In this document: one piece after another, positions 6,202 to 9,447 of the stretch
Layout of the letters: the number at the start of each line of letters is the position of its first letter
How positions within the stretch are numbered: the first letter of the stretch is position 1
NCBI GenBank assembly: GCA_023622385.1
Contig: JAMNZI010000144.1
Coordinates: 1-32,070, forward strand
Source: Bacillota bacterium
GTDB taxonomy: Bacteria > Bacillota > Clostridia > Caldicoprobacterales > Caldicoprobacteraceae
DNA: 32,070 nt
Direction: 5' to 3'
Notes under the pieces: generated by a model
Seen by the model: the letters and a program-made list of their open reading frames with translations, nothing else
What the model was told of the DNA's origin: nothing
The model's database searches: none
Made by a program: the position numbers and the translations under genes

Positions 6202-8004
6202 ATGACTAGAAACAAGAAACTGTTAGAATGGGTAGATCAGATGGCCAAGCTGTGCAAGCCTGATCGGGTCTATTGGTGCGACGGGTCAGATGAGGAATAC
6301 CAGCGCTTACTCAACGAAATGGTGGCTTCCGGGATGGCAACTCCCTTAAACCCTGAAAAGAAACCCGGGTGTTATCTGTTCAGAAGCCATCCATCGGATG
6401 TAGCCCGCGTTGAAGACAGAACCTTTATTGCATCCAAGAGCAAAGAAGACGCTGGTCCAACCAACAACTGGATAGATCCAGAAGAACTCAAAAAGACCAT
6501 GACCGAGCTTTACGATGGCTGCATGAAAGGCAGGACGATGTACGTCATACCCTTCTCCATGGGGCCTATTGGGTCTCCTATCTCCAAGATCGGCATTGAG
6601 CTTACTGACAGCCCTTATGTTGTGGTTAACATGCGCATAATGACCCGCATGGGCAAAAAGGTACTCGATATACTGGGAGAAGATGGCGAGTTTGTGCCAT
6701 GCCTGCATTCGGTGGGTGCACCACTTGCCGAAGGCCAAAAGGATACTAAATGGCCTTGTGCTCCTATGGAAAAGAAATACATCAGCCATTTCCCCGAGGA
6801 GAGAACCATCTGGTCCTATGGCTCTGGTTATGGTGGCAATGCCTTGCTGGGCAAGAAGTGCTTTGCCCTCCGTATAGCGTCGGTAATGGCCCGCGACGAG
6901 GGTTGGCTGGCCGAGCACATGCTCATCTTAGCCATAACTAACCCCAAAGGCGAACGCAAATACGTGGCAGCCGCTTTCCCGAGTGCCTGCGGCAAAACCA
7001 ACCTGGCCATGATGGTCCCCACTCTTCCCGGCTGGAAAGTGGAGACCATAGGCGACGACATCGCGTGGATGAAATTTGGCAAGGACGGCAGGCTGTATGC
7101 TATAAACCCTGAAGCAGGATTTTTCGGCGTTGCACCTGGTACATCCATGCACTCCAATCCCAATGCTATGCTGACCATCGCCAAGAACACCATATTCACC
7201 AATGCTGCACTGACCGACGACGGCGATATATGGTGGGAAGGCATTGGGTATGATCCTCCCGGGCATCTCATTGACTGGAAGGGCAATGATTGGTATCCGG
7301 GTTCTGATACGCCAGCCGCACATCCCAATGCTCGCTTTACGGCTCCTGCTAGCCAATGTCCATCCATTGCACCCGAGTGGGAAGATCCCAACGGGGTACC
7401 CATATCAGCTATACTGTTTGGTGGCCGCAGGTCCACCACGGTACCACTGGTATATGAAAGCTTTGATTGGAACCATGGGGTATTCTTAGGTTCAATAATG
7501 GGCTCGGAAATCACGGCGGCTATTATATCCGATCAAATCGGCAAAGTGCGCCGCGATCCATTTGCCATGCGTCCTTTCTGCGGATACCATATATGCGATT
7601 ACTTCCAGCACTGGCTCAACATCGGAAAGACAGCCGATCCTGAGAAGCTACCCAGGATATTCTTCGTAAACTGGTTCCGCAAAGACAAGGACGGCAACTG
7701 GCTATGGCCAGGCTTTGGCGAGAATAGCCGCGTGCTCAAGTGGATACTCGAGAGGGTATCTGGCGAGGGTAAAGCGGTTGAAACGCCCATCGGTTACATG
7801 CCAACGCCCGATGCCATCGATACGACTGGGCTTGACATAAGCAGCAGCGCCATGCAGGAGCTCCTGAAAGTTGACCGCGATGAGTGGCTGCGCGAAGTGG
7901 CCTCCATTCGCGAATATTACGATTCCTTTGGCGACAAGTTGCCCAAAGAGCTGGCTCATCAGCTGGATGCTCTTGAAAAGAGGCTACGCGAATATAACGG
8001 TTAA
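6202..8004 (+). CDS. pckG: Phosphoenolpyruvate carboxykinase (GTP)
   Basis: 600 aa; [13 protein letters not shown] kinase-1a motif, [35 protein letters not shown] typical of GTP-PEPCK. Confidence 0.97.
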
Positions 8005-8040
8005 AAAAGGACGGCCAATAAGGCCGTCCTTTTTGTTTTT
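8004..8040 (+). terminator. Rho-independent terminator after pckG
   Basis: AAAAAGGACGGCC AATA AGGCCGTCCTTTTTGTTTTT. Confidence 0.9.
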
Positions 8041-8123
8041 CTTTTTCTTCCTTAACTTAAACATTAACCGAACAACCGTAAAAGCCATACACTATGCCCA
8101 AACCTATCAGGAATTTTTATTGT

Positions 8124-8275
8124 ACTACTCTCTCGGAGTATGACTCTGGGAGAGAGTGGCACCACCAAAGGCCAAGGTAATGATCCGGGTTAGCCGGGGA
8201 ATGCTGGTTAACCTGGTGCGATGCCGCCATCCCACGCTGAGGTGCCCCTCAATTTTAATTTATTGAGAGGAGGAT
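8124..8275 (+). ncRNA. Candidate structured RNA element (strand and class uncertain)
   Basis: ACTCTCTC(8127-8134)/GAGAGAGT(8150-8157) with inner GAGT/ACTC; GCACCA(8159-8164)/TGGTGC(8214-8219) enclosing GGTTAGCC(8188-8195)/GGTTAACC(8206-8213). GC-rich noncoding island between two genes. Confidence 0.5.
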
Positions 8276-9447
8276 GTCACGCCCGGACCATCCCCACTCT
8301 CGGGCTCGGAGTTCAATTCCGGAGGCTTGGGACCCAAAAACTGGTAATAATCCACCTTTATTCTGCCGTTGTACAGCTTTCTCTTGCGATCGGCTTTGCG
8401 CCCAAAGAGGCGCTCAAAACCTTCATGAGGCGACAGTATATACAGCGACCAGGTATCAAGGGGCTTGAAAACCTGCCCCATTTCCCTGTACAGCTCTTCC
8501 ACCTCTTTTCTGTCACCCAACCTCTCTCCATAAGGGGGATTCGTGATAATACATCCGTATTTCCTTTTGGTACTGAACTTAGACAACGACTGGGTATGAA
8601 AGTCTATATAATCACCAACGCCTGCCAGCTTTGCATTATGCCGTGCCACTTTCAAGACCTTCCCATCGATGTCATAACCCAACAGTCTAAACCGCAAATC
8701 GCGGCGTATGGCATCCTTGGCCTCTTCCCTGGCCTGTTTCCAGATATCAGCAGAAATCCATGGCCACTTCTCCGAATCAAAAGTTCTATTGAGCCCCGGC
8801 GCCATGTTAAGGCCTATCATCGCGGCCTCAATTAAAATAGTACCCGAACCGCAGAATGGGTCCACAAGCAGCCTGTTGGGATTCCAAAAGCTGAGCTGAA
8901 CCAGTGCAGCGGCCAGGGTCTCCCTCAGCGGGGCTTTGCTCGCCATCTGACGGTAACCGCGTTTGTGCAGGCCGAAACCGCTGGCATCTATGGCTAATGT
9001 GGCCACATCCTTCAGAAGCGACACTTCTATGACAAACCTGGGCCCATTCTCATCAAACCAGCTCCTCCTGTATTTTTTCTTCAACCGTTCTACAATGGCC
9101 TTCTTCACTATAGCCTGACAGTCAGGAACGCTAAACAATTTCGATTTCACAGATTTGCCTATAACGGGGAAACAGGCATTTTCGGGCAGCACATCTTCCC
9201 AGGGCAGGGCTTTGGTCCGTTCAAACAGCTCTTCAAAAGTCAAAGCCGGAAATTCGCCCATCTTTACAAACACCCTGTCTGCTGACCGCAGCCACAGGTT
9301 TGCGCGGCTGATTGCGGAAACATCGGCTTTAAATGTAACCTTTCCATTATCCACCTTAACATTTTCATAGCCCAGTGCTCTTAACTCTCCGGCTACAATA
9401 GCTTCCACTCCAAAAGCAGCCGTAGCGACGATCTCAAATGTATCCAT
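8260..9447 (-). CDS. THUMP domain class I SAM-dependent RNA (23S rRNA G2445-type) methyltransferase
   Basis: 395 aa; N-terminal THUMP, DPFCGSGTILIEAAMIGLNMAPG, ITNPPYGERL motifs (RlmL/YpsC family). Confidence 0.9.
   Translation of the reverse strand: MDTFEIVATAAFGVEAIVAGELRALGYENVKVDNGKVTFKADVSAISRANLWLRSADRVFVKMGEFPALTFEELFERTKALPWEDVLPENACFPVIGKSVKSKLFSVPDCQAIVKKAIVERLKKKYRRSWFDENGPRFVIEVSLLKDVATLAIDASGFGLHKRGYRQMASKAPLRETLAAALVQLSFWNPNRLLVDPFCGSGTILIEAAMIGLNMAPGLNRTFDSEKWPWISADIWKQAREEAKDAIRRDLRFRLLGYDIDGKVLKVARHNAKLAGVGDYIDFHTQSLSKFSTKRKYGCIITNPPYGERLGDRKEVEELYREMGQVFKPLDTWSLYILSPHEGFERLFGRKADRKRKLYNGRIKVDYYQFLGPKPPELNSEPESGDGPGVTSSSQ

Follow-up and report, generated by a model that had tools for sequence, protein, structure and literature searches.

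Between pckG and a convergent gene for a THUMP methyltransferase (ORF 8260-9447, minus strand), a Caldicoprobacter sp. contig carries a compact multistem segment, and the question is what this segment is. An earlier note on the 32,070-nucleotide stretch analysed here (henceforth the window) had marked positions 8124-8275 as a candidate trans-acting non-coding RNA. The true extent goes slightly beyond, up to 8280, and 8130-8280 very probably comprises the scaffold of an omegaRNA (reRNA) together with the right end of an IS1341-like IS200/IS605 transposon, stranded at this site as a probably inactive relic.

Fold of the segment and search for described RNA families

All complementarities named in the earlier note could be located in the sequence. 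At 8128-8135, ACTCTCTC is complementary to GAGAGAGT at 8150-8157, giving a hairpin; GCACCA (8159-8164) is complementary to TGGTGC (8214-8219), GGTTAGCC (8188-8195) to GGTTAACC (8206-8213) and CCTCAAT (8247-8253) to ATTGAGAGG (8262-8270). This last pairing overlaps the stop codon of the methyltransferase (TAA, 8262-8260 on the minus strand), also as proposed. For the plus strand of 8115-8275 the fold energy is -68.2 kcal/mol, where 200 dinucleotide shuffles give -48.1 +/- 3.9 kcal/mol (z -5.20, 0/200 as good), and the minus-strand fold of the same stretch is weaker (z -2.9 against shuffles).

Rfam recognised only tRNAs in the window at the gathering score, corresponding to three tRNA genes at 177-250 and 2237-2428, of which two form a tandem pair and have long variable arms. 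When 8000-8350 was searched at E up to 10, the matches were weak, far below gathering scores and mostly on the pckG terminator; none was to raiA, the class that the earlier note had placed first for testing. Even the intact loci described below matched no Rfam family. Under strict filters, neither the window's genome nor the six relatives searched from its family gave a raiA match (0/7); two other families of the order were searched as well, and most of their genomes have raiA RNA. A raiA-motif RNA or another described host non-coding RNA would suit a compact multistem segment lying between genes in a clostridial genome, but no family other than tRNA reaches the gathering score, raiA is absent even among the weak matches and the covarying structure is accounted for by homologues linked to tnpB (see below), so that this identity has practically no chance of being right. 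The view that the segment is neither an obvious leader nor a classical riboswitch was borne out.

Homologues beside tnpB and the conserved scaffold

Among 61 genomes there was one good match at the DNA level, in the congener C. oshimai (81% identity). Within the genus, sequence like the 3' end of the segment is found again where tnpB genes, or remnants lacking tnpB, have their right ends. In a collection of 84,980 species genomes, the core pattern of this right end was found at 29 stretches, mostly from Clostridia and including many thermophiles, and these mostly adjoin tnpB or tnpB remnants. A phylum-wide search found many more copies, with matches at E <= 1e-40 in 14 of 399 genomes; the plasmid and phage collections searched gave no match, and one viral contig bears the element with its 372-aa tnpB. 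Homologues outside the species, on which the earlier note had made its candidate depend, thus exist, and they lie beside tnpB in other Clostridia and Bacillota.

The intact elements reveal what the segment was. In a Syntrophomonadaceae locus (L131) and in Clostridia isolate 27 (L109), an intact 372-aa tnpB ends in ..ALDALGA* and continues directly into window-like sequence, the match running from a hairpin at the stop codon to ..GAGGATGTCAC; other Clostridia and Bacillota likewise carry an intact 372-aa tnpB with window-like 3' sequence. The window ORF 7871-8143 ends ..YYSLGV* at the same place as the intact TnpB. By Pfam the 372-aa protein is Cas12f1-like_TNB (E 3e-21), and the solved structures nearest to it are annotated as IS605 OrfB-domain, Cas12f and TnpB proteins. 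The element type carries tnpB only, with target TTTAC and right terminus GTCAC. The parts found in the window are as follows.

8126-8130: left truncation junction, where the host flank shared with C. oshimai and C. algeriensis (flank alignment) stops at about ..TTGTACT and the tnpB remnant follows
8130-8143, plus strand: tnpB 3' remnant, the final sense codons with the stop (..S L G V *; TGA 8141-8143), homologous to ..ALDALGA* of intact TnpB
8130-8152, plus strand: helix 1, hairpin across the tnpB stop codon (8130-8138 with 8144-8152), 97.4% of cells paired
8156-8280, plus strand: helix closing the scaffold, GTGGCACC.. (8156-8164) with ..GGATGTCAC (8272-8280), 97.7% of cells paired in 22 sequences
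8170-8209, plus strand: helix 3, GGCCA (8170-8174) with TGGTT (8205-8209), around a local hairpin, helix 4 (8184-8188 with 8194-8198)
8215-8244, plus strand: two small consensus hairpins, helices 5 and 6 (8215-8219 with 8223-8227, 8228-8233 with 8239-8244)
8245-8270, plus strand: right-end hairpin, CCCCTCAAT..ATTGAGAGG, containing the core pattern of the 29 stretches; covariation of helix 8 strong
8276-8280, plus strand: right transposon boundary GTCAC, directly after which the flanks diverge in the 22-copy alignment; sequence from 8281 would be the guide
8260-8280, minus strand: last six residues of the methyltransferase (VTSSSQ) and its stop, element-derived, read within ORF 8260-9447

Alignment of 22 copies gave a consensus of 48 pairs in eight helices, 96% paired across the copies, although this figure favours the structure somewhat, as the consensus came from the fold of one alignment row (L142). 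Changes on both sides were seen at 11 pairs against 4.6 in shuffles, and 0/500 shuffles were as high, counts that are not probabilities because the sequences are related. Sliding the pairing partners abolishes the signal, and it is on this control and on the double changes that the weight of the covariation rests. The covariation check that the earlier note had proposed therefore came out in favour of a conserved fold, with all eight helices supported. Helix 1 has two pairs with both-side changes, and in the window a G-C pair has become A-U by change on both sides. Helix 3 is paired in 100% of cells and helix 4 in 89%, its stem being replaced in L151. In the window, three mispairs break helices 5 and 6 in part, and the right-end hairpin differs from those of intact elements by one mismatch and a longer loop.

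The conserved structure departs in part from the stems first proposed: GTGGCACC at 8156-8163 pairs with GGATGTCAC at 8272-8280, and the long helix of GGTTAGCC with GGTTAACC, real as a pairing, is an alternative specific to the window. In complete intact relatives the minimum-energy fold of the window fits 34-42 of 48 pairs, the consensus fold 46-50 of 50. A covariance model (R2) built from 17 tnpB-linked loci, none of them from Caldicoprobacter, recovers window positions 8123-8280 at full length with 103.5 bits (E about 1e-29); it scores the C. oshimai copy at 151 bits, and the decayed second copy that the window's genome also contains at 21.8 bits.

Three features expected of an omegaRNA are thus present: the intact homologues lie directly 3' of tnpB and overlap its end, the covarying scaffold is shared with intact elements, and the 3' end coincides with a right end bearing a subterminal hairpin, followed by variable flank (the guide). 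A cognate TnpB was found neither in cis nor elsewhere in the genome, which is why we call the segment a relic derived from the family and not a working member; as the assembly is 94% complete, the gene could be absent from the assembly. Of the earlier proposal, the compact, multistem and covarying scaffold stands; a free-standing host RNA it is not: the segment is of a known kind, the omegaRNA and right end of a TnpB-type element whose cognate tnpB is gone, and not a new host RNA.

Three other TnpB lineages were considered as sources and set aside. The 410-aa TnpB of C. oshimai has the right-end hairpin in common and a different scaffold (only 25-29 bits with R2), the 412-aa lineage has a different right end, and the TnpB of Clostridiaceae AS04akNAM_68 shows the same layout with a distant scaffold (41-47 bits).

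Insertion history and present state of the copy

Intact copies start after TTTAC or a close variant and finish with GTCAC. In the window the host flank stops at about 8126-8130 and gives way to the 3' part of tnpB, so that the left end and the body of tnpB are gone; the left-end motif GAATGCCCC was looked for throughout the window and not found, so no left-end hairpin stands beside a target motif, as it would in an intact or mobilisable IS200/IS605 element. At the syntenic site C. algeriensis has TTTAC and the left-end hairpin, followed directly by the right end, the scaffold being lost, and C. oshimai has no recognisable element. Comparison of these sequences suggests one old insertion, with differing later deletions in the window and in C. 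algeriensis.

Solo copies occur elsewhere. The second copy in the window's genome (L087, G000:C56:16709-16852) is decayed and lies between beta-galactosidase-like and oxidoreductase-like genes; the better-preserved C. oshimai copy occupies the orthologous place. Directly after a carbohydrate kinase gene, C. oshimai (L025) and C. algeriensis (L027) share an orthologous solo right end with an omegaRNA-like scaffold, which, conserved between both species, may be another solo omegaRNA that has been retained. Orthologous C-terminal TnpB remnants of the same lineage (L181 in G003, L167 in G002) have lost most of the scaffold and kept the ends. Four very short left-end/right-end elements without tnpB were also found in Caldicoprobacter (L022, L029, L070, L074), of which L070 has an omegaRNA-like scaffold; they are MITE/PATE-like and derive from a second IS200/IS605 lineage, the target of which appears to be TTTAG.

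Could the solo omegaRNA have been kept by selection after the loss of tnpB, to act in trans, either with a non-cognate TnpB or as a regulatory RNA of the host? The window retains 42 of 47 scored pairs against 37.3 expected under random substitution (P 0.014-0.022 with three references), a surplus that may reflect constraint on the stranded copy, and the related C. oshimai copy also keeps 43 of 47 (P 0.06-0.10). However, part of this signal must stem from the active period of the element, and much of the divergence of the window may be older than the tnpB loss. The second copy in the same genome keeps 24 of 38 pairs, no more than chance, the scaffold is missing at the orthologous C. algeriensis site, a search of the plus strand of 7900-8500 gave no sigma-70-like promoter, the pckG terminator lies just upstream of the segment, and no partner TnpB was found. 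Retention by selection is accordingly very unlikely. We consider it extremely unlikely that the segment is a non-autonomous, still mobilisable MITE/PATE-like element with an omegaRNA, moved in trans by a TnpA of the cell: the short elements of the genus offer a precedent and the right-end hairpin is largely intact in the window, but the left end is lacking, which weighs heavily against mobility, and the genome has two copies only, of differing divergence and with no recent duplication.

The position downstream of pckG, together with a CCCCTCA hairpin that looks like a weak terminator, might also suggest an ordinary pckG 3' UTR or the hairpin region of a bidirectional terminator. A strong pckG terminator already stands upstream at 8004-8034, syntenic relatives lack the segment or have a remnant only, and the homologues adjoin tnpB in unrelated bacteria, leaving this explanation a negligible probability; the same terminator and tnpB-linked homologues speak against a read-through 3' UTR devoid of conserved structure, the outcome that the earlier note had named as fatal to its candidate. 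A relic is the best reading because neither a cognate TnpB, nor a left end, nor a promoter was found. Its sole likely effect today is to supply the VTSSSQ and stop codon of the convergent methyltransferase.

Significance and comparison with known systems

A candidate 'new ncRNA' is thus settled as transposon-derived, and a Cas12f-like TnpB lineage gains an omegaRNA family that is backed by covariation and goes unrecognised by Rfam. In intergenic scans, stranded guide scaffolds of TnpB can look like host ncRNAs. The intact Clostridia pairs of TnpB and omegaRNA (372-aa TnpB, target TTTAC) are candidates for RNA-guided cleavage.

PATE/MITE derivatives of IS200/IS605 elements, remnants without tnpA and tnpB bounded by IS605-type hairpins, have reportedly been described in Haloquadratum; unlike these, the window copy retains the omegaRNA and has no left end. 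With the raiA motif RNA (RF03072; e.g. ModT, PMC11706538) the segment shares a compact multistem intergenic layout in Clostridia, but neither sequence nor structure matches. A precedent is RAGATH-18, once an orphan RNA motif and now recognised as the guide scaffold of a TnpB (Ren et al. 2024, PMC11061315): the IS607 reRNA derived from it is also a structured intergenic RNA serving an adjacent TnpB as guide scaffold. RAGATH-18 is of the IS607 type and a different motif, and no RAGATH family appeared in the Rfam scans.

The RNA bound by ISDra2 TnpB is ~150 nt long and combines the tnpB 3' end and the right end with about 16 nt of flanking sequence; the protein cuts matching DNA beside a target motif (Karvelis et al. 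2021, PMC8612924). By analogy, the TnpB of the intact element, a Cas12f-related RNA-guided nuclease, would use the scaffold RNA with adjacent host sequence as guide, and guided TnpB would keep the transposon at its donor site. In the Caldicoprobacter sp. of the window, the left end and tnpB body have been deleted, so that the element is unable to move by itself and is without its cognate nuclease. Scaffold and target (TTTAC here, TTGAT in ISDra2) differ, and the window has lost its tnpB and left end; what the two have in common is an RNA of about 150 nt from the tnpB 3' end and right end, a guide taken from flanking DNA, an adjacent motif at the target side and a TnpB with a Cas12f1-like domain.
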